Below, piece after piece: positions 2,348-37,671 of a stretch of DNA of 40,769 nucleotides. The stretch spans positions 1-40,769 of the forward strand of contig JAAVYR010000005.1 in assembly GCA_022791255.1 (NCBI GenBank). The letters run 5' to 3'. Position 1 is the first letter of the stretch. Each line of letters starts with the position of its first letter. Source of the stretch: Peptococcaceae bacterium. GTDB taxonomy: Bacteria; Bacillota; Dehalobacteriia; UBA4068; JAAVYR01. The position numbers and the translations under genes are program-made. The notes under the pieces are model-generated. The model worked only from the letters and a program-made list of their open reading frames with translations. It did not search any database and was not told where the DNA came from.

Positions 2348-2648
2348 GGAAAAAATAAAAGCGCTTTTGGGCTTTGCGCAAAAGGCAGGGAAAATTATTT
2401 CCGGAGATGATATGGTCATCTCTGGTATGAAAAAAAAGCAAGTATTCTTTATCGTGTTGGCGCTGGATGCTTCTGCATATGTGAAGAAAGAAGTCTTACA
2501 CTATGCAGAAAAATATCAGGTGCCCTATGCGTTGGCCTTTGATAAAGCTGAACTAGGGCTTGCTATTGGAAAATCGCCCCGAGCCGTCCTAGGGGTGATT
2601 GATAAAAATTTTGCAGCGGGTATGCAAAAGCATGTTTATGCGGTATAA
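2340..2648 (+). CDS. L7Ae/L30e-family ribosomal-type protein (YlxQ-like)
   Basis: A 102-aa protein of the L7Ae/L30e/S12e fold. It starts with the typical LLGFAQKAGKIISGDDMV segment, followed by alternating helix and strand, and a FIVLALDAS strand. It occupies the YlxQ position between ylxR and infB. Family members bind kink-turn RNA. The start ATG 2340 lies within the end of ylxR (8-nt overlap), consistent with translational coupling. Confidence 0.88.
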   Translation: MNEEKIKALLGFAQKAGKIISGDDMVISGMKKKQVFFIVLALDASAYVKKEVLHYAEKYQVPYALAFDKAELGLAIGKSPRAVLGVIDKNFAAGMQKHVYAV

Positions 2649-2701
2649 TATTTCTTTAGAGGGATATATTTGCTTTGGATAGAAGAGGAGTGGTTTCATT
2701 A

Positions 2702-5509
2702 ATGGCAAAAGTAAAAGTATATGAATTGGCAAAGGAATTAAATTGCGATAGCAAAACTGTTATCCAGCAGCTGGGCAAAATGGGCTGTGTGGTAAAAAAC
2801 CATATGAGCATTATTGACGAGGCTCTTGCAGGAAAGCTTCGAGAAAAGTTTGCAGCTGGGGAAATAAAAAAGACTGCTACTGGTAAAAATAAGCAAGCAG
2901 AGGAAAAGAAACCAACTGGAGATGGTTTTGTTCCGCGTGTAGTCCGTATCCCTAAAGCTACAGCTATTGAAGAAGCCGCAGCTCTAGAAGAGAACAAAGA
3001 AGCTGTAGCTAGTGAAAAAGGAGAAGTTTCCCTGCAAGCAGAAGAAAAGAAAACAACTGCTGCTGCAGAAAAAGAAACTGTTGCTGTAGCTGTAAGTGAT
3101 GCAGCTGAGCAAAATAATCGTCAGCCAAAAGCTGCAGATGGGCAGAAAGAAAACCTTGCTCCTATGAAAAAAGAAGCAGATAAACAGCCTTTGCCAAAGG
3201 AAAAAACAAACCAAACTCCTTCTATGCAAGCAATGCAAACGATGCAAACGATGCAAAAAGATGTAAAAGATAATCGTCAAAATGATGGAATGAAACGGCC
3301 TGCTGGCGAACAGGCAGGTCGCAACACTAGACCTAATAATAGGTTTGAACAGGGGGGCAATCGTCCGGTATCCTCTGGTGATAGAAGATATCAAGGCCAG
3401 GGTGGTCAAGGACAAAATGAAAGCAAAGGAAAAGCTTTCAACAATAACAATCGGCCCTTTAACAAGGATTTTGCTGGTAAAGATAAAGATGGCGAAGATC
3501 GTAACAAGTCTTTTCATAATAACAAGGGAAATAATAACCGGGGCCCAAAACCGGCGGGCGGTACTGCTGGTGTGATGCCTGGTACAAAATACACCCCTGC
3601 TCCTGTCGAAAAACAAGCTAATCGCAAAGGTGATAAAAAACAGTATAAAGATAAAGAGATGGGCAATAATCGTCGTAACAGTTATGGTGGCGACAAAGAA
3701 ATCCGCTGGAAGTCCAATAAGAAACAAAAACAGGCAAAACAGCAAATGCCGCCAGTGGTACCGAAAAAGATTATCATTGGAGAAACCATTATTGTTCAAG
3801 AATTGGCAAAAAGCATGGGAAAAACTGCTGCTGAGCTCATTAAGAAATTATTTGGCTTAGGGGTTATGGTAACAGTTAACCAAGAAATAGACTCTGATAC
3901 CGCTATTCTCTTAGGGGAAGAATTTGGCATTACCGTAGAAGTCCAGGTAGATAAAGCTATGGAAATCATGGAAGATGTAGAGGATGCTGCAGATACTTTG
4001 GTAGAACGGCCGCCGGTGGTTACGGTTATGGGCCATGTAGACCATGGGAAAACTTCTCTCTTAGACGCCATCCGGGAAGCGAATGTTATCGCTACAGAAG
4101 CTGGTGGCATTACCCAGCATATTGGGGCATATCAAGTAGAAATCAATAATAAAAAGATTACTTTCTTAGATACACCTGGACACGAAGCTTTTACCGCTAT
4201 GCGGGCTAGAGGCGCTCAGATTACGGATGTGGCTATCTTGGTGGTTGCAGCAGACGACGGTGTGATGCCGCAAACTATCGAAGCTATCGACCATGCCAAA
4301 GCTGCTGGCGTACCGATTATCGTAGCCATCAACAAAATTGATAAGCCAGGTGCAAACCCTGATAAGGTAAAACAGGAATTGACTGAATATGGCTTAGTTG
4401 GGGAAGACTGGGGCGGCGATACTATTATGGTACCGATTTCTGCTAAAAAGCGGGAAAATATTCCGCAGTTATTAGAAATGGTACTTTTAGTAGCGGAAAT
4501 CGCTGAACTAAAAGCAAATCCAAATCGGAATGCCCGGGGGACTGTTATCGAGTCTCAGCTGGATAAAGGCAGAGGCGCAGTCGCTACCTTGCTGGTGCAA
4601 AAGGGTACTTTGCATGTGGGCGATAATATTATTGCGGGGGCTGTCTTTGGGAAAGTCCGGGCGATGATGGACGATAAAGGTAGACGGGTAAAAGTCGCAA
4701 CTCCGTCTACTCCAGTAGAAGTACTAGGCTTTTCGGAAGTGCCGCCGGCAGGGGAAATCTTTCTTTCTGTGGAAGATGAAAAATCTGCTCGTATGGTGGC
4801 CTCTCGTCAGCATGCCAAACGCAGAGAAGATGAAATGCGGAAATCTTCTAAAGTCAGCTTAGACGACTTATTTAAACAAATTGAGCAAGGGGAAATCAAA
4901 GAACTCAATGTAATTATCAAAGCGGATGTCCATGGTTCCGCTGAAGCTGTTCGCCAATCTTTAGAAAAATTGGCTACTGATGAAGTAAAAGTGACTGTTA
5001 TTCACAGTGGCGTTGGGGCTATTAGTGAGTCTGATGTTATGCTTGCTTCTTCTTCTAATGCCATTATTATTGGCTTTAATGTGCGTCCAGACGCGAACAC
5101 CAAAAAGGCTGCAGAATATGAGGAAGTCGATATTCGCTTGTATCGGGTAATTTATGACGCTATTGACGATGTAAAGAAGGCTATGGCAGGGCTCCTTGCG
5201 CCAGAATACAAGGAAAATGTGATTGGTCATGCAGAAGTTCGTATGGTGATCAAAGTGCCAAAGGCAGGGAATGTAGCCGGCAGCTATATTACCGATGGCA
5301 AGATTACCAGACAAGCACAGGTTCGGGTTATCCGTGACGGCATTGTAGTAACAGAAGGTAAAATCGAGTCCTTAAAACGGTTTAAAGATGATGTCAAAGA
5401 AGTTGCTACTGGCTTTGAATGTGGTATTGGCATTGAAGACTTTAACGATGTAAAGGAAGGCGACATTATCGAAGCCTTTGTTATGGAAGAAATCGCCAGA
5501 CAGTTATAA
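2702..5509 (+). CDS. infB: Translation initiation factor IF-2
   Basis: IF-2 is the GTPase that brings initiator tRNA to the 30S subunit and promotes subunit joining. ATG 2702 gives the canonical [14 protein letters not shown] start with GAGGAG at 2685-2690; an upstream in-frame TTG at 2675 precedes that ribosome site and is rejected. The product is 935 aa. An IF2-N domain is followed by a long charged Lys/Glu/Asn/Gly/Gln-rich linker (about 65-350), a second IF2-N domain, and the G domain with GHVDHGKT (about 443-450), DTPGH (about 490) and NKID (about 543). Domains II-IV follow. Short tandem MQTMQ-type repeats lie in the linker at 3230-3260. Confidence 0.97.
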
Positions 5510-23787: not shown

Positions 23788-25203
23788 TTGCCGGAAGCAG
23801 AGAGTAATGTTTTCGTAGAACGTGGCATAATCCTCTCCCTGCTGCTCTCCATGGTTCCCCCTATCCCACAGGCGGCATGGGCGGCGCCAAGCAGTACCAA
23901 TAGTGCGCCGGCGTTAAATCTGGCATTGGCCAGCAATGTGAAGTACCAGCTGGAAAACGGCAAGACGTACACATTAAGTGCGGCTAGCGTTTCCAACACA
24001 GTTATTGAAGTGGCTAGTGGTAGAACGGCGACAGTGGTAGTGCCGAAGAATGTTGCTGTTACCATTGACGACTACAATAACGGCTGTAGTCCTATCTCTC
24101 TTTTGGGCAGTGGGAAACTGACCTTAGTGGTGGATGGGACTTTAACTGTGACTGGCGGTGCGGCAACAAATGGTACAGGTCATCCGATTAATAACGCAGA
24201 CCGGGAAATCAATAAAGGGAAAGGTGGCTATGCCGGGATTTCGGTTCCTGTTGGCACCTCATTGACTGTTCGAGGCAGCGGCACCTTGCTTGCGCGTGGT
24301 GGTGACGCTGGAAATGGCGGCGAACAAATCCGAGACCCATATGGTACAAATACCGACTGTGGCGGCGGTGGCGGTGGCGGCGCCGGTGCCGGCATTGGTG
24401 GTAACGGTGGCGACGGGGGTTCTTATGGTACTACAGTTGGCCGACCAGGGATAGGTGCTGGTACGATAGCCATTTATGAAACGGTAAAAGTAACTGCTTA
24501 TGGCGGCGGCGGCGGTTCTGGTAATCCTGCAACGAATGCAACTTCTGGTGGCGGTGCCGGTGGGTATCCTGCAGCTGGTATTGGTGGTGGCGGTAGTGGC
24601 GGTGGTAATGGGACTTCTGGTAATGGTGGTGGCGGTTTCTCCGGGGGCGGTGGGGAAGATGCCAATTACCAAGGGGTAAATAGTGGTAAAGGCGGTACCA
24701 ATGGTGCCGGCGGTAAGGGGGGTATGCAATCTGCTGGCGGAAATGGCTCTATGGGAATAGGTGGTGGTGGTTATTATAGTAGGGGTACTGGCAGAAATAC
24801 TACAGCTTTGACTGGTGGTATAATTGCCGGTGGTGCTGGTGGTTATGATGGTTCTGATGCGAATGTTGGTAGTAATGGTGGGGCAGGTGGTACTGTATAT
24901 CTGGGGAATAAAGCTGCTCTAACTGTTGCTAACGGCAGTCTTATTTCTACGACAAAGCAAAAATGGGGACAAAGTCCAACATTTATTTATAGGCAATATG
25001 GTTATGAAACAGCAGCAATTCGTGGAGCAACGGCCCTAACAAGTGTTAACACTAGTTCGGAGTCTACTTTTTTGAGTTCTTTAGCTAGTATTGCTAAAAA
25101 GGATAATGGCATTTCTAAAAAGGGGGTTGGTTCCGGGGCAGGTTATACAGAAAGCTCTAATGGTTCCTTTACCATCCAAAAGGTTCCGGAACGGGTGGGA
25201 TGA
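23788..25203 (+). CDS. Glycine-rich secreted-type protein, cassette 2
   Basis: The frame opens directly after TAA (23785-23787) with TTG 23788. Its first residues (MPEAESNVFVERG) come from the flanking box and are acidic, not a normal basic signal start. Then follow a hydrophobic core (IILSLLLSMVPP) and the cleavage-like AAWAAPS. The mature part has a beta-rich region (about 40-130), a long Gly-rich middle (about 170-380, e.g. PAAGIGGGG, GGGGFSGGGG), a WGQ-TxIYxQxGY block and the constant GVGSGAG...QKVPERV end. A one-base length difference after VPERV makes this copy stop early compared with cassette 1. Family unknown; probably a surface or secreted repeat protein, or a silent copy. Confidence 0.6.
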   Translation: MPEAESNVFVERGIILSLLLSMVPPIPQAAWAAPSSTNSAPALNLALASNVKYQLENGKTYTLSAASVSNTVIEVASGRTATVVVPKNVAVTIDDYNNGCSPISLLGSGKLTLVVDGTLTVTGGAATNGTGHPINNADREINKGKGGYAGISVPVGTSLTVRGSGTLLARGGDAGNGGEQIRDPYGTNTDCGGGGGGGAGAGIGGNGGDGGSYGTTVGRPGIGAGTIAIYETVKVTAYGGGGGSGNPATNATSGGGAGGYPAAGIGGGGSGGGNGTSGNGGGGFSGGGGEDANYQGVNSGKGGTNGAGGKGGMQSAGGNGSMGIGGGGYYSRGTGRNTTALTGGIIAGGAGGYDGSDANVGSNGGAGGTVYLGNKAALTVANGSLISTTKQKWGQSPTFIYRQYGYETAAIRGATALTSVNTSSESTFLSSLASIAKKDNGISKKGVGSGAGYTESSNGSFTIQKVPERVG

Positions 25204-25551: not shown

Positions 25552-26976
25552 ATGGTTCCCCCTATCCCACAGGCGGCATGGGCGGCGCCAAGCAGTACTA
25601 TTGTGACATTGCCGTCAGGCAATGCTTCCAACATTAGCAAGCTGACGCTGGGCAGCGACACCTATCAGCTAACCTCGACGGGAACTGTGAAATATGCACA
25701 AATCATCGTGCCCAATGGCGTTAATGCCGTTTTGTATGTTCCGGGTAGTTTAACGATTGACAATGCACAGAACACGCGGTCCTATACGGCTAGCGAAGAT
25801 AGGGGTATTTCTGCCATTGATATCCAAGGTAACGGCAGTTTGGTGCTGTATGTGCAGGATACGATGAAGCTGTATGGCAGTGCTGCAGGTAATGGGGAAA
25901 ATGCTCGACCAACTTACATTTCTAATGGTGGTCCAGGGGGGAAAGCAGCAATTTCTGTTCCTTCTGGGGCAATTCTGACTTTGCGCGGCAATGGTACCCT
26001 TTATGCCTATGGTGGTGCTGCCGGTGATGGTGGTAGTGCTGGTGAAATAGGCTCGGCTAATCAAGCAGGCGCAGCAGGCGGTGGTGCCGGCGCCGGTATT
26101 GGTGGGAATGGTGGTAAAGGTGGCCATGGCGTTCTGGATAGCAGTGCTCCAAATTCTATTGGGGAAGATGGCGGTGCTGGTATTTCTGCCGGGACCATTA
26201 ATGTGTATGATACCGTGAAGGTATATGCCTATGGCGGTACTGGCGGTAGCGGTGGCCAGCCGGTTTTGAATAAAGGTACTGGCGAGATTAAGTCTACCTC
26301 TGGTTCTGGCGGTGGTGGTGGGTATCCAGCTGCTGGGGTTGGCGGCGGTGGCGGCGGCGCCGGTGGTGCTGACCATGGTAATGGCGGCGGTGGTTTCTCT
26401 GGTGGTGCAGGACAGCAAATATATGTTCGTGATGCCATAAACGGGCAAGGGGGTCCTGCACAAGAGTTTTCTGGTGGTGGCGGTTATTTTAGCAAAGGTG
26501 ATACCGGTTCCTATGCGGCAGGGACTGCAGATGAGATGTTTGGGGGTGCCATTGGTGGTGGTAAGGTTGACACTGTAAATTGGCAAACTCATTCTGGGCA
26601 AGGCGGTAATGCTGGCTCTGGTGGTACTGTGAAAGTGGCTAATCTGGCCAAACTCTATGCTTACAACGGCAGCAGTACCACTACCAGTAAGAACAACTGG
26701 GGACAAAACCAGACGCCTATCTACTGGCAAAACGGCTATTCTTTAGTGAGCGCCCGTAGTGCAGGCAATGTAATTAATAAAGCTGGTGTGGAAACAGCAG
26801 CTCACTTTAATGCAGATCGAAAATTGACCTACTACAATGAAATTACCAAAAACAACTTGGGGGTTGGTTCTGGTGCTGGGTTTATAGAAAGCCACAATGG
26901 TTCCTTTACCACCCAAAAGGTTCCGGAACGGGTGGCTTTGGCTACGCTGTGCGAGAGAAATATTGAGTACTTCTGA
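25552..26976 (+). CDS. Glycine-rich secreted-type protein, cassette 3 (no start before the signal peptide)
   Basis: The reading frame begins right after TAA (25510-25512) as SVAVTLSLSLLLSMVPPIP, so the hydrophobic signal core lacks any ATG/GTG/TTG in front. The only ATG (25552) lies inside the core and would spoil export. A basic RKKHHN stretch sits one frame away (25496-25513), as if the signal peptide were split by a frameshift. The mature part differs from cassette 2 after APSST (LPSGNASNISKLTLG), then shares the layout: Gly-rich middle, YPAAGVGGGGGG, NGGGGFSGG, WGQNQTPIYWQNGY and constant GVGSGAG...QKVPERVALATL end. Best read as a silent or decayed copy; translation from 25552 cannot be excluded. 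Confidence 0.55.
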   Translation: MVPPIPQAAWAAPSSTIVTLPSGNASNISKLTLGSDTYQLTSTGTVKYAQIIVPNGVNAVLYVPGSLTIDNAQNTRSYTASEDRGISAIDIQGNGSLVLYVQDTMKLYGSAAGNGENARPTYISNGGPGGKAAISVPSGAILTLRGNGTLYAYGGAAGDGGSAGEIGSANQAGAAGGGAGAGIGGNGGKGGHGVLDSSAPNSIGEDGGAGISAGTINVYDTVKVYAYGGTGGSGGQPVLNKGTGEIKSTSGSGGGGGYPAAGVGGGGGGAGGADHGNGGGGFSGGAGQQIYVRDAINGQGGPAQEFSGGGGYFSKGDTGSYAAGTADEMFGGAIGGGKVDTVNWQTHSGQGGNAGSGGTVKVANLAKLYAYNGSSTTTSKNNWGQNQTPIYWQNGYSLVSARSAGNVINKAGVETAAHFNADRKLTYYNEITKNNLGVGSGAGFIESHNGSFTTQKVPERVALATLCERNIEYF

Positions 26977-27103: not shown

Positions 27104-28639
27104 ATGTGGGAAACATCTGAAAAATCTTATATTTGCATTGACCTAAAAAGCTTTTATGCTTCTGTGGAATGTATTGAGCGAAAACTGGATCCGCTCAATG
27201 TTAATTTAGTGGTAGCCGATGAAAGTAGAACAGCAAAGACAATTTGCCTTTCTGTTTCTCCCGCATTAAAATCCTATGGTATTCCTGGCCGTCCTCGGTT
27301 ATTTGAAGTGGTGGAGAAGGTGCGGCAATTGAATGCCGAACGAAAACGACAAGTACCGGGACATCGTTTTTCTGGCGAGTCTTATTTCAGGGATGAGTTG
27401 GCTGCCAATAAAAATTTAAGCTTATCTTATATTGTAGCCAAGCCTAGGATGGCGCTGTATATAGAATATAGTACGAGGATATATCAGATTTACCTAAAAT
27501 ATATTGCCCCTGAGGATATTCAGGTTTACTCGATTGATGAGGTTTTTATTGATTGTACAGCCTATCTAAAAGCTTATGGCAAGACACCCCGTGAGCTAGC
27601 AAGCGCTATCATCAATGATATCTTTCAAACGACGGGAATTACAGCAACTGCTGGCGTTGGTACTAATTTATATTTGGCAAAGGTTGCCATGGATATTGTG
27701 GCCAAGCACAAAGAACCTGATAAAAATGGTGCTCGTATTGCAGAGCTGGATGAGTTGACTTACCGTCGTCTTTTGTGGAGCCATCGTCCTCTCACAGACT
27801 TTTGGCGCATCGGCAAAGGCTATGCTCAAAAGCTAGAGGACCATGGTCTGTATACGATGGGAGATATTGCTCGTTGTTCTTTAGGAAAGCCGGGAGACAA
27901 ATATAACGAGGATTTACTCTACGGATTGTTTGGCGTTAATGCAGAGTTGCTTATCGACCATGCTTGGGGCTGGGAGCCATGTACCATTGCAGATATCAAA
28001 GCTTATAAACCGGCTTCTAGCAGCACTGGCGGCGGGCAAGTATTGCCGTATCCTTATGACTATGAAAAGACCAAACTGGTTGTAAAAGAAATGGTGGATA
28101 TGCTGGCCTTGAATTTAGTAGAAAAACAACTAGTTACCAATCAGATTGTCTTAACCATTGGTTATGACAAGGAAAATCTAGGGTCTGGTCAGCAAGGATG
28201 TGCCTATGATGGGGAAATCACGCTGGACCGCTATGGAAGAAAAACACCCAAACACAGTCATGGCACGGTCAATCTAGACAAATATTCTTCTTCTGAAAAA
28301 GTAATTTTACAAGCAGTGCTACAGCTATATGAAGAAATTATCAATAAAAAGTTATTGGTGCGTCGTATCTATATCACGGCTAATCATGTTATTCCAGAAG
28401 AGGAAATAAACAATTTGCCACCTGTTATGGAACAACTGGATTTGTTTACAGATTATGAGGCACTGGCTAAACAACAGACAATGGAACAACAAGCGCTGGA
28501 AAAAGAACGGAAAATCCAAGAAGCTGTGATTGGCATCAAAAAGCAATATGGGAAAAATGCCATTATCAAGGGAATGAATATGCAGGAGGGGGCTACTGCC
28601 CGCACGCGAAATAAACAAATCGGCGGGCACAAAGCCTAG
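27104..28639 (+). CDS. Y-family DNA polymerase (UmuC/DinB-like, UvrX type)
   Basis: A translesion DNA polymerase of 511 aa. The palm-domain metal motifs are visible: CIDLKSFYASVE (Asp13) and YSIDEVFID (Asp145, Glu146). The TAGVGTNLYLAKVAMD region (about 180-195) is the thumb helix-hairpin-helix entry. The C-terminal little-finger region and a charged tail follow. AAAGGAGTG precedes ATG 27104. The next gene is a YolD-like protein, the usual partner of this subgroup in Firmicutes, so the pair is probably damage-induced; no clear LexA box was seen in the 100 bp upstream. Confidence 0.9.
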   Translation: MWETSEKSYICIDLKSFYASVECIERKLDPLNVNLVVADESRTAKTICLSVSPALKSYGIPGRPRLFEVVEKVRQLNAERKRQVPGHRFSGESYFRDELAANKNLSLSYIVAKPRMALYIEYSTRIYQIYLKYIAPEDIQVYSIDEVFIDCTAYLKAYGKTPRELASAIINDIFQTTGITATAGVGTNLYLAKVAMDIVAKHKEPDKNGARIAELDELTYRRLLWSHRPLTDFWRIGKGYAQKLEDHGLYTMGDIARCSLGKPGDKYNEDLLYGLFGVNAELLIDHAWGWEPCTIADIKAYKPASSSTGGGQVLPYPYDYEKTKLVVKEMVDMLALNLVEKQLVTNQIVLTIGYDKENLGSGQQGCAYDGEITLDRYGRKTPKHSHGTVNLDKYSSSEKVILQAVLQLYEEIINKKLLVRRIYITANHVIPEEEINNLPPVMEQLDLFTDYEALAKQQTMEQQALEKERKIQEAVIGIKKQYGKNAIIKGMNMQEGATARTRNKQIGGHKA

Positions 28640-28644
28640 AGAAT

Positions 28645-29076
28645 ATGATGAACCAAGAAAAAGAAATCAGCCTATACGAAGATATGATTAACTTACCCCA
28701 TCCTATCTCAACAAAACATCCGCAAATGGCTATGCACGATAGAGCAGCGCAATTTTCTCCCTTTGCTGCTTTATCTGGTTATGAAGAGGCAGTAGCAGAG
28801 ACTGGGCGTTATACGGAGGGACGCATCGCTCTTGGTGATGAAGAAATCACTATACTAAATCAGCAAATCAACCATTTGCAAGAGGGCATAACAGGACGAC
28901 CCCAGGTATGTATTACCTATTTCCTTCCAGATAAGCGCAAAAGTGGTGGGTCCTATGTGACCCAGGAATTGACGGTGAAAAAGATAGACCGATATGAAAA
29001 AGTACTGATAGGATCAGCAGGGGAAGTAATACCCTTTGCAGACATCTTAACGATAGAGGAGAAAAAAGAGAGCTAA
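28645..29076 (+). CDS. YolD-like protein, partner of the Y-family polymerase
   Basis: A 143-aa protein with the clostridial YolD-like segment HPQMAMHDRAAQFSPFAALS (about 25-44) and a C-terminal beta region. These proteins are encoded next to UvrX/UmuC-type polymerases and are thought to act with them. It begins 5 bp after the polymerase stop; 28648 is an alternative ATG. No strong ribosome site is visible, so coupled translation is likely. Confidence 0.85.
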   Translation: MMNQEKEISLYEDMINLPHPISTKHPQMAMHDRAAQFSPFAALSGYEEAVAETGRYTEGRIALGDEEITILNQQINHLQEGITGRPQVCITYFLPDKRKSGGSYVTQELTVKKIDRYEKVLIGSAGEVIPFADILTIEEKKES

Positions 29077-29096
29077 TAAGATAGCTCTCTTTTTAT
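29065..29096. terminator. Bidirectional terminator between the YolD gene and the lipoprotein gene
   Basis: Stem AAAGAGAGCTA/TAGCTCTCTTT (29065-29075, 29082-29092), 6-nt loop, T-run on the plus strand and A-run (T-run on the minus strand) before it. Confidence 0.85.
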
Positions 29097-29890
29097 TCGG
29101 CAGGATAAATCTCATAATCGTCAGGATTAAAACCGGAAAAATCTGGGATTGTTTCATTATAGCCGCTGAAGGTGATGGTATACTTTCTTTCTGTTTCTCC
29201 GTCGTTGTCAGCATTGCAGATGTGATACTCTCCACTTGCCTGGTATAAGCGACCTTCTTTATCTAATACGACTGTGAAAACAGGAAGAGACTGGTAAGTA
29301 AAAAGGCTGCCATAGGGCTGGCTTTTTGCTATATCGGCATATAAATATTGATAATATTTTTCACAATCAAGGGTAAAGGAGATTTCTTCTCCGTTTGCTG
29401 TTATCTTGCTGGTCTGGCTGGCGATAGCGGCGGCAGGGAAGTCGTGGATATCCATGATTATGGTTCTAGCTGCAAAATCCTTTTGGTCTGTTTTTGATTG
29501 ATAATAATTGGGCGTGCTATCGTCCAGGTCGTCCAGATAAAGGCAATTATCTTTGAAATAAGACATGGCATGGCTGGTATCTATTTGGGAAGGATAGATT
29601 TTCTCCGTTTCCAGGAAACTTTCCATTGTGAACATATCGCTCTGCGTGCCGCGGGCAAAATGGAGAATGCTGCGGCCGTTTACTCGTTGTCCGTTTCTAT
29701 CATTAGGAGCGGTTACATCTTTTCCCGTAAGAGTTGTTGTCTCTATGCGTTCAATGGTAATGCTTTCTGTTTGCAGCAGATGTTCTCTAGCTGCAATGTA
29801 ACGGTCATAGGGCGTTTCCTCTTGATTACAGGCAGTAAAAGCCAATAAAGCTAGCAAGAGAAAACAAGTAGACTGAAAAAACTTGTTCAT
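29093..29890 (-). CDS. Hypothetical lipoprotein
   Basis: A 265-aa protein with a lipoprotein signal: MNKFF, a hydrophobic core LLLALLAF and lipobox FTAC before NQEE. The start at 29890 is chosen because GAGGAG lies just upstream; a longer in-frame ORF reaches 29953 but lacks a signal at its own start. The mature part looks like a beta-rich sheet protein with a conserved-looking C-terminal KYTITFSGYNETIPDF. No family was recognised; the shape suggests a LolA/LppX-like or anti-sigma-type lipoprotein, unproven. It follows the DUF1622 gene by 22 bp. Confidence 0.7.
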   Translation of the reverse strand: MNKFFQSTCFLLLALLAFTACNQEETPYDRYIAAREHLLQTESITIERIETTTLTGKDVTAPNDRNGQRVNGRSILHFARGTQSDMFTMESFLETEKIYPSQIDTSHAMSYFKDNCLYLDDLDDSTPNYYQSKTDQKDFAARTIIMDIHDFPAAAIASQTSKITANGEEISFTLDCEKYYQYLYADIAKSQPYGSLFTYQSLPVFTVVLDKEGRLYQASGEYHICNADNDGETERKYTITFSGYNETIPDFSGFNPDDYEIYPAE

Positions 29891-29912
29891 AAAAAACTCC
29901 TCGTTTTTATTG

Positions 29913-30305
29913 TTATGCTTGTTTTTTGTTGCTGGAGATTTCTTCTGTTTCATTGGTTTCTGCTGTTTCTGCTGTTTCTTTGATGGTAGCTTCTTCTTCT
30001 ACTTTGATTTCCCAGTGGATGAGGAAGGTGAGGGCCGCTCGTAATACAATGATAGCTCCTACTAAGAGAATTTCAGACATTTCTCGAATGATAACTGTTC
30101 TGAGGATTTCGCTGCCCAATTTGAACTCTAATCCTAGGGCCATACCTTTGGCGAGGTTTAAGCGGATTTTTGGGTTTTTCTGCACATAGTCTATGATGCC
30201 CCGGCAACCGGCAATGCCGATTACGATAATGCCCATAAACTCAAATAGGAGAATTAAAATATTGACGAATTGTCCTTGTAAACTGTGTAATACTTCCATC
30301 ATCAT
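29913..30305 (-). CDS. Small DUF1622-type membrane protein
   Basis: A 130-aa protein with three predicted membrane segments (about 15-35, 68-88 with few charges, 80-100) and a polar, Glu/Thr-rich tail (about 105-130). The sequence GKGMALGLEF-like (here AKGMALGLEFKLGSEILRTVI) is typical of the DUF1622 family. Function unknown. Probably transcribed with the lipoprotein that follows. Confidence 0.75.
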   Translation of the reverse strand: MMMEVLHSLQGQFVNILILLFEFMGIIVIGIAGCRGIIDYVQKNPKIRLNLAKGMALGLEFKLGSEILRTVIIREMSEILLVGAIIVLRAALTFLIHWEIKVEEEATIKETAETAETNETEEISSNKKQA

Positions 30306-30339
30306 GTCATCTTCTTTCTTTTCTTAAAGGGAGTTTAAT

Positions 30340-31584
30340 TTAATATTGCCGTGCTAAATCCACTACATGGTGTAAAGGCTTGTCCTGTGCATAGTTTGCC
30401 AGGTTTTCCAGGAAAATATCAACAACTAGTTTGTTATTGAGGGGGAGACTTTCATCTCCAGAAGTATGGGGGGTAATGATGGTATGTGGGGAAGACCAAA
30501 GAGATGCACTCTGCGGCAGCGGCTCCATAGCTGTGACATCCAGCACGGCGCCGGCAATGGCGCCTGTTCTTAAGGCCTTTTCTAAGGCCGCTTCATCTAG
30601 GGCGGAGCCTCTGCCTACATTGACTACAATGGTGTTGGGGGATAAAGCGGCAATTCGTTTTCCATTTAAGATGTTGATGGTTTCATCTGTTTCCGGTAGG
30701 GCTAAGACTAAGATATCAATGTCTGTTAAGGCTTGGTCAATTTTTTCTGTCGTAAAAAGCTTATCGATGTAATCCGGACAGTCTTTTTTGCTTCTCTTTA
30801 CACCTTGAACGGTGCAGCCTAGAGCCTTTAATCGTGAAGCAATATTTTGTCCTAAATCTCCCAGTCCAACTACGGTTGCTTTACTACCATAGATGGAGCG
30901 GATTTCTCCGGCAGATTGCCAGAGTCCTTTTGACTGGTGGTCCAGGTATTGAAGCATTTTTCGCATGAGCATAAGGATGCCGCAAACTACATATTCGGCA
31001 ATGCTGATACCGTATGCACCAGAAGCATTTGTAAACTGTACGCCTGGGGCGAAAAGGCCTGGCGCAAGATAACGGTTTACACCGGCGAAGGAACACTGAA
31101 ACCAGCGTAAATAGGGAAGTTGGGGCAGGTATTCTGGGGGGATAAGGCCGAAAAAGATTTCACAGTCTGCGATATCCATTGCTCGGAAATTATTCTCCTG
31201 TAAAAAGGTAACGCTGTAACCAAATCCGGCTGCAGCCATTTTAATTTGTTGTTGTAGTTTATCTTCCAGGGGTGTCATATTGACATAGATTTTCCCTGTT
31301 GTCTTTTCCCTGTTATCTGTCTGACTTGTTTTCTTTAGGGAGTCGCTAAAGGTTTTTAACTTTGTTTTGATTTCCGGAGAAAGCTCAGATATGGGCATGT
31401 TTGCAATAGCGGCTGTTAAGGTATATAAATGTACCAGACATACTTTTGGATAGCTTTCTTTTAACCGTAAAAAGCTATTTTTTGCGCCTTCTTTTACGAG
31501 TTTTTCAGCGGAGTCAATCCCAACGCTAGATAGTTTTTGCGCCATTTCTTTGCCTATATTTTTCATAGAAGTTAATGCGGTCAT
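30340..31584 (-). CDS. TfoX_C domain fused to a D-2-hydroxyacid dehydrogenase
   Basis: A 414-aa protein. Residues 1 to about 80 match the TfoX C-terminal domain (MTALTSMKNIGKEMAQKL, VGIDSAEKLVKEGAKNSFLRLK). After a polar linker, residues about 105-414 are a D-isomer-specific 2-hydroxyacid dehydrogenase: NAD-binding GLGDLGQNIA, catalytic Arg in VNVGRGSALDE, Glu in AVLDVTAMEPLP, and His in IITPHTSGDE. The enzyme would reduce or oxidise a 2-oxo/2-hydroxy acid; substrate unknown. The start at 31584 is 9 nt after AAAAGG. The fusion has no stop or frameshift in between. Confidence 0.8.
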   Translation of the reverse strand: MTALTSMKNIGKEMAQKLSSVGIDSAEKLVKEGAKNSFLRLKESYPKVCLVHLYTLTAAIANMPISELSPEIKTKLKTFSDSLKKTSQTDNREKTTGKIYVNMTPLEDKLQQQIKMAAAGFGYSVTFLQENNFRAMDIADCEIFFGLIPPEYLPQLPYLRWFQCSFAGVNRYLAPGLFAPGVQFTNASGAYGISIAEYVVCGILMLMRKMLQYLDHQSKGLWQSAGEIRSIYGSKATVVGLGDLGQNIASRLKALGCTVQGVKRSKKDCPDYIDKLFTTEKIDQALTDIDILVLALPETDETINILNGKRIAALSPNTIVVNVGRGSALDEAALEKALRTGAIAGAVLDVTAMEPLPQSASLWSSPHTIITPHTSGDESLPLNNKLVVDIFLENLANYAQDKPLHHVVDLARQY

Positions 31585-31617
31585 AATCTTCATCCTTTTC
31601 AAAATAGGTTCTTTCCC

Positions 31618-31688
31618 ATTTTATCATGGATAAGCTTCTAATTCAATGTAAGACAGTCGTGGACAAAGAACCAAAAACATGGTATAAA
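31618..31688. promoter_or_regulatory. Divergent promoters for the dehydrogenase and nfo
   Basis: Minus strand: TTGAAT (31646-31641), 17 bp, TAAAAT (31623-31618) for the dehydrogenase. Plus strand: TGGACA (31660-31665), 17 bp, TATAAA (31683-31688) for nfo. The two do not overlap. Confidence 0.6.
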
Positions 31689-31740
31689 AGAGATATTAAT
31701 AAAGAAATTAAATAAGATTAGAAAGAAACTAGGTGCAGAT

Positions 31741-32580
31741 ATGTTTACAATCGGTTGCCATTTATCGACTTCAAAAGGGTATACCCATATGGGAAAAGAG
31801 GCTGTATCTATTGGCGGCAATACCTTTCAATTTTTCACAAGAAATCCTAGAGGCAGCAAAGCAAAGGATATCAAACAAAGTGATGTAGACGGCCTTCTTG
31901 GGATTATGGCAGAGCATGATTTTCCGGTGATTTTAGCTCATGCGCCATATACTTTAAATCCCTGTTCGGATAAACCGGAAACCAGAGAGTTTGCCTGGCA
32001 AGTGATGGCTGACGACTTACAGCGCATGGAATACACACCCCATAACCTGTATAACTTTCATCCCGGCAGTCATGTGGGACAAGGGGTAGAAACCGGTATT
32101 GGGCAGATTGCGGATTTATTAAATGGCATTTTAACCAAGGAACAAACTACTACCGTATTATTGGAAACCATGGCGGGGAAGGGTACGGAAATCGGCAGCA
32201 CTTTTGCAGAGCTAGCCCAGATATTAGAGAAGGTAAATTTACAGGAAAAAATGGGTGTGTGCTTGGATACTTGTCATATCCATGATGGTGGTTATGATAT
32301 TGTTAATGATTTAGATGGGGTATTGGAAGAATTTGACCATGTTATCGGTCTCAAATATCTGAAAGCCATCCATATTAATGACAGCATGAACCCTCTTGGC
32401 AGTCATAAAGACCGCCATGCCAAAATCGGTGAGGGATATATTGGAACGGAAGCTTTTGCGCGCATCATCAACCATCCAGCACTTTGTCATTTACCCTTCT
32501 TTTTAGAAACGCCTAACGAATTAGATGGGTATCAAGCTGAGATTGCCCTTTTGCGGGGTCTCTATCAGCAGGAAGGTTAG
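31741..32580 (+). CDS. nfo: Endonuclease IV (AP endonuclease)
   Basis: Nfo cuts DNA 5' to abasic sites in base-excision repair, using three zinc ions. The 279-aa TIM barrel shows [11 protein letters not shown] (about 105-115), [13 protein letters not shown] (about 140-152), [13 protein letters not shown] (about 174-186), [22 protein letters not shown] (about 211-232) and FFLETPNE near the end, all metal-ligand regions. AGGTG precedes ATG 31741. It is followed by another DNA repair gene after 11 bp, suggesting a repair operon. Confidence 0.95.
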
Positions 32581-32591
32581 CGGTCGGATAG

Positions 32592-33302
32592 ATGGGAAAA
32601 GAGACAATAAAAGAGCTGCTGTTATCTCAGGCAGATGAGAAATATCGTGCTTTTCATTTGAAGTTAGTGCCGGGACTCTCTTTACCGATGATAGGCGTAA
32701 GGTTACCGGCTTTACGGAAGATAGCAAAAGAAATCAGCAAGAAATCCCTAGAAGAAATACTTGCCTTTTTAAATAGCAAGGGGCAGTATTATGAAGAGGT
32801 CATGTTGCAAGGATTGGTTATTGGCTATATGAAATGTACCCCAGCGGAACGGCTTACACTTATCCGGGAATTTGTGTCCAAAATAGATAACTGGGCTGTC
32901 TGTGATTGCTTTTGCAGCGGTTTAAAATTTACAGAAAAAAATAAAGAGCTTGTATTTGATTTTTTAACAGATTATTTTCAAAGTGAGGCAGAATATGACC
33001 AGCGCTTTGCCTATGTGATGGCTATGGATTATTTTTTAGAGCCTCCTTATCTAGCACAAGTATTTGCCCGGATTGACGGGAAGGTTCTAAATGGATATTA
33101 CAGCCAGATGGCGGTGGCGTGGTGCCTCTCTATTGCCTATATTAAGGCACCTCAGGAAACGGTGGCCTTCTTAAAAAGTGCAACGCTGGATGACTTTACT
33201 TATGAAAAGAGTCTGCAGAAAATCAGAGAGTCCCTGCGGGTATCTCCAGCAGAAAAAGAGAAAATCAAAGCAATGAGCAGAAAACAAAAAAGAGAGGACT
33301 AG
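32592..33302 (+). CDS. DNA alkylation repair protein (AlkD-like HEAT-repeat glycosylase family)
   Basis: A 236-aa all-helical protein. The KLVPGLSLPMIGVRLPALRKIAKEI start and IDNWAVCDCFCSGLKF (about 97-112) are typical of the DNA alkylation repair family; the latter region holds the Trp and Asp of the active-site cleft. Family members remove N3- and N7-alkylated bases. The start ATG 32592 lies 11 bp after nfo with only a weak ribosome site, so translation is likely coupled. Together with Nfo this would give glycosylase plus AP endonuclease. Confidence 0.85.
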   Translation: MGKETIKELLLSQADEKYRAFHLKLVPGLSLPMIGVRLPALRKIAKEISKKSLEEILAFLNSKGQYYEEVMLQGLVIGYMKCTPAERLTLIREFVSKIDNWAVCDCFCSGLKFTEKNKELVFDFLTDYFQSEAEYDQRFAYVMAMDYFLEPPYLAQVFARIDGKVLNGYYSQMAVAWCLSIAYIKAPQETVAFLKSATLDDFTYEKSLQKIRESLRVSPAEKEKIKAMSRKQKRED

Positions 33303-36354: not shown

Positions 36355-37671
36355 TTATTCTAGGGTTTCTACTGTACCTATAAAGATAGGTAAGTTTGCC
36401 TTGGTGTCAATAATCATATAAAGGAATGGGCGGTCTAGGTAAACACTTTTTTGTTCTATCATTGCAGCCTTTTCCATTATTTCTACTGCGGTAGCTGCGC
36501 CTGCTTTGGTGCCTGCTTCATCTACGGCGATATGGGTTTTGTGGAGGACACGACTAATGGCTAAATTACCGTCTGCACTTCCCAGTGCGGAGAAGTCTGC
36601 TCTGTCTTCATCGAAAGCGTCTTTCATGCCCAGGGCTACCAGAATATTGCTCATTTCCACATCATAGTCGGCGGTGAATTTGGGAAGAGATGTTTTGATG
36701 AGCTCATCGCTGGCATTTGTAAGAATTGTTTGGAGCTTTTCGCCGGTAAGGGTATTGATATACTCGTGTAGTTTTACGTCTCTGTTAGGGAGCAGTACGG
36801 CAAAAGCATAGTTTTTCCCGTCGTAATATTTCACATAACCGGTGGCGTTTTCGTCTTCTAAGTAGGTATATTCTTCGCTATACATCATTTTCGATTTCTG
36901 TTCGGTGCCATTTTCGGTGGTGAAGACGCCGTCGTGAATATCGCTTTCATGGTAGACCTGTTCCCATTTGCCGTCAAAGGCAAGGGCATTGACCAGATAC
37001 ATAATGGCGTTTTCAGGGATATTGTCTAAAATGTTTTCAATCATACCGTCGGTCTGATTTTTTACCCAACCGTTAATAGTCTTGCAGGTTGCGTCGTTAA
37101 AGGGGGCTTTGTAGATTTCTGCGCCGTACCATTCGCCGTTGGTTTTCAGGAAATCTTCGTTGACGGTGAAATCCTCATCATCTTTGAACCAAATTGCGTT
37201 AGCAAGGGAAAGTTTGCCCTTTTCATCGGCAGGAAGGCCGCCAATGTAGGCGGAAAGATAACCGTTTAATTCTCCCACTGATAGTCCGAACACCTCTTCC
37301 ATTTGGCTTTTGGTATCTCCCGCTGCACCATTTGCAGTCATGCCTAATGCGCTCATGATGGAGAGAGGAGAGATTAAAGTATTTTTCGGTGGCTGTGATG
37401 AACTATCCAAATCTTCGTGGAAGATAGTTTGTTGCAGGAGCTTTACACCAAAGTCAGAAAGGGCAGTAACCGGTTTTTCTTCTGTAATATCAACAGGAGG
37501 ATGACTGTGACTGCTGCTATCGGTGATATTTTCCATGAGATTTACTGAAATACCTGATGGATGTCCATCATCCTCTTGCGGATTTGGTGTTTTTTCTCCG
37601 CAACCTGCCATAGCAAGGGGAAGAGATAAGGCTAGCCCTAAGCAAAGCAATTTATGCTTTTGTTTCATCAT
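36355..37671 (-). CDS. Lipoprotein serpin (serine protease inhibitor)
   Basis: A 438-aa serpin. A lipoprotein signal (LPLAMAGC, Cys about 24) and a polar spacer (to about 65) precede the serpin fold. Typical segments are NTLISPLSIMSALGMTANGA (about 98-117), NAIWFKDD, and YLVNALAFDGKWEQ. The reactive-centre hinge DEAGTKAGAATAVEIM (about 387-402) has the small residues needed for loop insertion, so it should be inhibitory. Counting P15 Gly and P14 Thr, P1 would be Lys (followed by Ala-Ala), predicting trypsin-like targets. RPFLYMI and FIGTVETLE end the fold. AAAGGA lies about 11 nt before the first ATG. It probably guards the cell surface against proteases. Confidence 0.92.
   Translation of the reverse strand: MMKQKHKLLCLGLALSLPLAMAGCGEKTPNPQEDDGHPSGISVNLMENITDSSSHSHPPVDITEEKPVTALSDFGVKLLQQTIFHEDLDSSSQPPKNTLISPLSIMSALGMTANGAAGDTKSQMEEVFGLSVGELNGYLSAYIGGLPADEKGKLSLANAIWFKDDEDFTVNEDFLKTNGEWYGAEIYKAPFNDATCKTINGWVKNQTDGMIENILDNIPENAIMYLVNALAFDGKWEQVYHESDIHDGVFTTENGTEQKSKMMYSEEYTYLEDENATGYVKYYDGKNYAFAVLLPNRDVKLHEYINTLTGEKLQTILTNASDELIKTSLPKFTADYDVEMSNILVALGMKDAFDEDRADFSALGSADGNLAISRVLHKTHIAVDEAGTKAGAATAVEIMEKAAMIEQKSVYLDRPFLYMIIDTKANLPIFIGTVETLE

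Follow-up and report, generated by a model that had tools for sequence, protein, structure and literature searches.

An in-frame join of a TfoX_C domain to a 2-hydroxyacid dehydrogenase in a Peptococcaceae bacterium, probably a young and isolated fusion

The window analysed here, the whole stretch of 40,769 nucleotides of contig JAAVYR010000005.1 from a Peptococcaceae bacterium (assembly GCA_022791255.1), carries a reading frame in which a small helical domain known from the competence regulator TfoX appears to precede a dehydrogenase. This raises the questions of whether the join is real, how it came about and what, if anything, the small domain does for the enzyme. On the minus strand the frame runs uninterrupted between a TTG (31602) and the stop codon (30340), and an ATG at 31584 is the candidate start; because of the spacing of AAAGGA to this ATG, 414 aa is the most likely protein length, and the same ATG matches the limits (30340-31584) given in an earlier sequence-only reading (Table 1). 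That reading had proposed the joining of TfoX_C and a dehydrogenase in one frame, and the proposal is borne out by Pfam, since both families lie in the same frame above their cut-offs: TfoX_C (PF04994) with 60.4 bits (E 1.8e-16, cut-off 23.1) over residues 9-84 of the 420-aa TTG version, and 2-Hacid_dh_C (PF02826) with 155.6 bits (E 1.1e-45, cut-off 25.1). The fusion of two known parts is real, and the TfoX_C similarity in residues 1-80, on which the proposal had been staked, is present. In a profile search of its own genome, the fusion is the single TfoX_C match, scoring 64 bits. The split catalytic-domain model PF00389 reaches 17.0 bits against a cut-off of 24.6, and phmmer alignments to solved members cover part of that domain. 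No ATG, GTG or TTG codon occurs between codon 63 and codon 103 of the 414-aa ORF, so a separate complete dehydrogenase cannot initiate within it; independent initiation of the reductase is thus ruled out and the enzyme depends on the fusion.

Table 1. Features of the fusion locus and its immediate flanks (positions in the window)
Feature	Position	Strand	Basis
Gene for a DUF1622 membrane protein, separated from the end of the fusion by 34 nt; downstream in the sister species too	29913..30305	-	locus comparison
Fusion ORF, 414 aa, ATG start	30340..31584	-	ORF reading and Pfam
D-2-hydroxyacid dehydrogenase/2-ketoacid reductase, residues 99-414; R325/E354/H373; K263-R264-S265 at the NADPH 2'-phosphate site	30340..31290	-	Pfam, structural-homologue alignment
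Tandem duplication of a 14-nt unit (14 nt followed by 11 exact nt of a second copy), taking up most of the linker	31290..31314	-	repeat test
Linker, residues 86-98, no start codon	31291..31329	-	sequence
Complete TfoX_C domain (residues 1-85); its final LKK is also the end of several stand-alone homologues	31330..31584	-	Pfam, alignment, model
Likely ribosome-binding site AAAGGA, with 8 nt between it and the ATG	31593..31598	-	sequence
TTGAAT-17-TAAAAT, promoter-like; before the unfused gene of the sister species the pair reads TTGAAT-17-TACAAT	31618..31646	-	consensus scan
Gene for an nfo-like AP endonuclease (AP_endonuc_2), divergent from the fusion; likewise placed in the sister species	31741..32580	+	Pfam, locus comparison

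The N-terminal half is predicted to be an HhH-like helical domain with the fold of Listeria 3mab, as an AlphaFold model built from 28 sequences (pLDDT 90.3) superposes on that structure with a TM of 0.97 and an rmsd of 0.8 over 85 residues (Z 18.3). The next structural matches, namely the N-terminal domain of RAD51/RadA, NusA AR2 and the HhH-like domains of Y-family polymerases, have Z values of about 5 and may reflect a common arrangement only. Stand-alone Bacillota TfoX_C proteins (PF04994 only; Listeria 3mab and 3bqt) have the same whole domain, ends and fold, but the copy in the window has no stop and runs on into the reductase. Across 54 relatives (L054-L107, which include a GNAT-fused one and do not extend to the 26 loci L108-L133), 35 of the 38 conserved columns are kept, the changes being A37S, E57T and G58A, in comparison with 20 of 46 variable columns at consensus (Fisher p 2e-6). 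This half of the protein therefore looks constrained, and the three changes, which include the loss of an E57-G58 pair present in at least 93% of these relatives, could reflect either drift or a new role. The domain is common to the TfoX/Sxy competence regulators and the protein in the window, but none of the 19 Pfam families with E values up to 1 in the scan of the fusion is TfoX_N, so the protein is not regarded as a competence regulator. In E. coli Sxy, mutations in TfoX_N are reported to affect CRP-dependent activation (PMC6728893). The genome does encode a ComEC-like Competence protein, but as this is also the case in 10 of 14 control genomes it is uninformative about a competence role. 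In the literature searched, no role of TfoX_C other than in competence regulators came up.

The C-terminal half had been claimed to hold a complete Arg/Glu/His triad, and R325, E354 and H373 (414-aa numbering) are indeed present and align with R226, E255 and H274, reported as the catalytic residues of Haloferax D2HDH (PMC12328707); G168 occupies the position of the substrate-positioning glycine of the family. The closest solved chains, 3hg7 and the DDH-like Haloferax D2HDH (5mh5), share with it the Rossmann domain, the triad and a basic 2'-phosphate site, while the enzyme in the window carries at its N-terminus the 85-residue TfoX_C and a 13-residue linker. In the alignment with 5mh5, GVKRSKK stands against GVRRSGD, placing K263-R264-S265 opposite R165-R166-S167, of which R165 and S167 are described as contacting the 2'-phosphate of NADPH (PMC12328707). 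The second Rossmann strand does not end in the Asp that marks NAD users, and the 2'-phosphate site has basic residues, as in DDH-like, NADPH-preferring reductases; the protein is thus probably an NADPH-leaning 2-ketoacid reductase, as judged from these aligned positions. Its sequence here, K263-R264-S265-K266-K267, differs from [ST]R[ST]x[RK], given as the NADPH fingerprint of the GHRA subfamily (PMC6303947), and it scores below the cut-off of NCBIfam Dhydh_Halo (188 vs 400 bits). Three other 2-hydroxyacid dehydrogenase matches in the same genome are 24-27% identical to it. A full-length model reached a mean pLDDT of only 57.9; as its alignment rows cover TfoX_C only and the reductase half is unreliable, we claim no interface from it.

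The likely origin of the join can be read from a sister species (G002), in which the same locus order (nfo, dehydrogenase, DUF1622) is found without TfoX_C and both flanks of the fusion are colinear. There, the dehydrogenase is 86-87% identical to that of the window, has its own ATG, begins MTDKTRKIYVNM and is divergent from nfo and followed by DUF1622. This comparison is one of two species, the third genome of the genus (75% complete) being without the nfo region. The promoter-like pair has the same place in both species, with an identical -35 and 17-nt spacing; counts in the consensus scan were at most about 1.4 sd above shuffles in both regions, so it is the conservation of the pair between species that carries the promoter argument. 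TfoX_C and its ribosome-binding site sit between this pair and the reductase, whose start codon is gone in the window. The tandem duplication falls in the linker, and a comparable repeat was found in 6 of 20,000 random 100-nt sequences. As 14 is not a multiple of three, the duplication may have set the common frame or compensated another small change, which two sequences cannot tell apart. In the other repeat register TfoX_C would end after 14 further codons and the phase of the reductase would meet an upstream stop, with no start before codon 103; only the fused reading therefore yields a complete reductase. Between the two species, dN/dS is 0.079 for the reductase, 0.044 for nfo and 0.056 for DUF1622, values from one pair that do not apportion changes between the lineages, and the reductase, under constraint similar to that on its neighbours, looks to be still selected for function. 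With its many synonymous changes, the reductase has a dS of 0.96, a sign of two species that are not closely related, and "recent" here stands for any time after their split.

Around the fusion, 27104-33302 holds DNA repair genes, namely an impB/mucB/samB family polymerase, the AP endonuclease and a DNA alkylation repair enzyme; the sister species, without TfoX_C, also has the AP endonuclease and, by eye, a relative of the alkylation enzyme. Next after the reductase on its strand come the DUF1622 gene and a lipoprotein-like gene that matches no Pfam family (together 29093-30305), and the sister species has both behind its reductase as well.

As for how widespread the pairing is, which the sequence-only reading had suggested checking, we found it in the genome of the window and neither in the sister species nor in the genome surveys. 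In a sample of the order, TfoX_C occurs in 9 of 35 genomes, 8 of them above the cut-off, and only the frame of the window's genome (426 aa) is long; the sister has no TfoX_C above the cut-off, its 22.1-bit match lying in an 88-aa ORF that is Cdd1-like by eye. At E ≤0.001, TfoX_C was found in 25 of 398 genomes of a phylum sample and in 64 of 397, 60 of 400 and 11 of 395 genomes of other samples, with no further dehydrogenase fusion; as the samples partly overlap, these counts are not summed. No second such fusion was thus seen in surveys of 35-400 genomes each, and none among the 43 genomes of the class searched. In the phylum sample (398 genomes) no TfoX_C frame except that of the window exceeds 168 aa, and the only long true frames above the cut-off, among those found in the samples, are that of the window and one in a Lachnospiraceae genome (G425). 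Frames of at least 173 aa in G774, G961, G900, G907, G1194, G1171, G989 and G986, and two more in L072 and L082, are not fusions: Pfam gave only TfoX_C and overlapping HhH models, so their upstream parts were taken as out-of-frame sequence. This check covered matches other than two below the cut-off (G516 C50, 524 aa, 21.5 bits; G1346 C10, 667 aa, 21.8 bits), and the long frames of L105, L074 and L056 were judged by frame reading only. The existence of stand-alone TfoX_C proteins, also noted beforehand, is amply confirmed, as TfoX_C stands alone by frame reading in 79 of 80 named loci, the remaining one being L084. The next relative of the dehydrogenase, in G006, a genome of another family, stands alone too. 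We found no description of a TfoX-dehydrogenase pairing in the literature, a weak negative as subscription papers were mostly outside the coverage. Taken together, the unfused sister locus, the lack of a second fusion in these surveys and the nearly always solitary TfoX_C make the pairing a lineage-specific fusion, which is probably isolated and young.

As to the source of the domain, the genes closest to it stand alone in gut Clostridia and reach 66% identity, and the best match within its own order has 54%; its GC content is 36.9% (45.5% in the reductase) and TfoX_C is patchily distributed across the sampled genomes. These features suggest that it was likely acquired by transfer. A tree of 60 rows, built from the sequence in the window, L054-L107 and five loci out of L108-L133, does not fix its place, as the TfoX_C of the window sits at an open fork with an end branch of 0.6 against a median of 0.19. 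Relatives were found in plasmid (12 records) and phage (4 records) collections, all below 60% identity; no viral contig encoding a relative was found, and a PADLOC search gave no defence system match at E 0.01. Among the flanks of the 80 loci, we considered the dehydrogenases near tfoX_C as a source of the enzyme, namely one 1.5 kb downstream in L054 (81 bits to the enzyme of the window) and SerA-like ones just upstream in L074 and L083 (23 and 24 bits to it), and rejected them because none is close to that of the window.

The one fused locus among the 80, L084 (Lachnospiraceae MAG contig CATJHO010000132.1, positions 2410-3255; same genome as G425), encodes a 281-aa frame with Acetyltransf_1 (68.0 bits) and TfoX_C (77.4 bits). 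As in the window, a TfoX_C of the stand-alone type is fused in frame to an enzyme, but here it is C-terminal and the partner is a GNAT acetyltransferase; this is an independent event. A similar GNAT is a separate gene 1.3 kb upstream in its tree neighbour L069, and relatives of the L084 GNAT scoring above 200 bits occur in L069, L108, L065, L058 and L066. In L065 (3001-4064), the tfoX_C stop overlaps the start (ATGA) of the next ORF, which is 269 aa long and contains a GNAT domain, an arrangement that suggests translational coupling. It is conceivable, though we consider it very doubtful, that the Bacillota TfoX_C serves as a docking module of general use, joined more than once to small-molecule enzymes so as to bring them to a nucleic-acid or transcription partner in common, and that competence regulators later took this role over through TfoX_N.

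The account that we find probable is that of a young lineage-specific fusion in which a working reductase carries a passive tethered TfoX_C domain. A stand-alone tfoX_C gene, of a kind common in gut Clostridia, would have landed behind the promoter of a 2-ketoacid reductase gene that was already there, ahead of its coding sequence; the tfoX_C stop codon and the reductase's own ATG would have been lost and the 14-nt duplication would have arisen in the linker. The reductase would now be translated solely as the C-terminal portion of a single polypeptide, expressed from what appears to be the ancestral reductase promoter and with the incoming ribosome-binding site. What the data show directly is the architecture, the lack of an internal start, the sister locus free of TfoX_C, the rarity of the pairing and the constraint on the reductase; that a transfer took place, which way it went and how the steps followed each other are inferred. 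The enzyme would keep its catalytic set and probably reduce 2-ketoacids with NADPH, and TfoX_C would fold independently as an HhH-like five-helix bundle, attached outside and acting as it does when alone, with presumably no allosteric coupling to the active site. The product is thus most likely a working NADPH-leaning 2-ketoacid reductase with a tethered binding domain; a regulatory or recruiting role for the latter, as raised in the sequence-only reading, is possible, the data speaking neither for nor against it.

Several other explanations have to be weighed against this one. That the junction or the duplication is an assembly artefact is suggested by the draft state of the genome (24 contigs) and by the duplication falling exactly at the junction, but the colinear flanks and the complete reductase given by the fused reading alone make it most improbable. 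An older fusion that was lost in the sister species is quite unlikely, though the locus has a single comparator and the TfoX_C tree is not decisive, as none of the other class genomes has it among the 43 searched and the next dehydrogenase relative is unfused. A deliberate recruitment of TfoX_C, bringing the reductase to a protein partner or nucleic acid and so controlling where or when it is active, would fit the resemblance (at a middling Z) to domains of RAD51/RadA, NusA and Y-family polymerases, the DNA and protein contacts that HhH-like folds serve, the conserved columns that are kept, and the independent GNAT fusion together with a GNAT relative within 3 kb of a stand-alone tfoX_C in 5 other loci of the 80. 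However, the pairing is confined to one species with no conserved partner, the fusion is probably young, the sister lacks the domain with its reductase under similar constraint, and a shared fold shows no function, so we regard recruitment as rather unlikely. The opposite explanation, a relic without function of its own that is kept because the reductase needs its start codon and ribosome-binding site, accounts for an enzyme not otherwise translatable, for the long branch and for the lost E57-G58 pair. It also seems unlikely to us, given the confident domain model and changes that avoid conserved columns as in stand-alone members, even if this pattern may partly be constraint from before the fusion. 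As an allosteric sensor, TfoX_C would resemble the ACT domain of E. coli SerA, which is hard to credit: TfoX_C is not known to bind a ligand, the ACT domain of SerA is at the C-terminus whereas TfoX_C is N-terminal, and the pairing is not conserved. Extra domains are, for their part, reported to regulate another branch of the enzyme family (PMC6303947).

The main value of the locus is as a cleanly readable case of fusion, with an unfused counterpart in the sister species, a promoter that was kept, a start codon that was lost and a short tandem duplication where the two parts meet. A further use is as a handle on TfoX_C through two concrete partners, the enzyme joined to it, which is readily assayed with NADPH, and the GNAT that recurs as its neighbour. 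Elsewhere in the window, two similar glycine-rich ORFs of 471 and 474 aa (23788-25203 and 25552-26976) have a common MVPPIPQAAWAAPSS stretch near their start and are probably paralogous secreted or surface proteins, and 36355-37671 encodes a bacterial serpin (Pfam Serpin, 302.7 bits) that is probably a lipoprotein.
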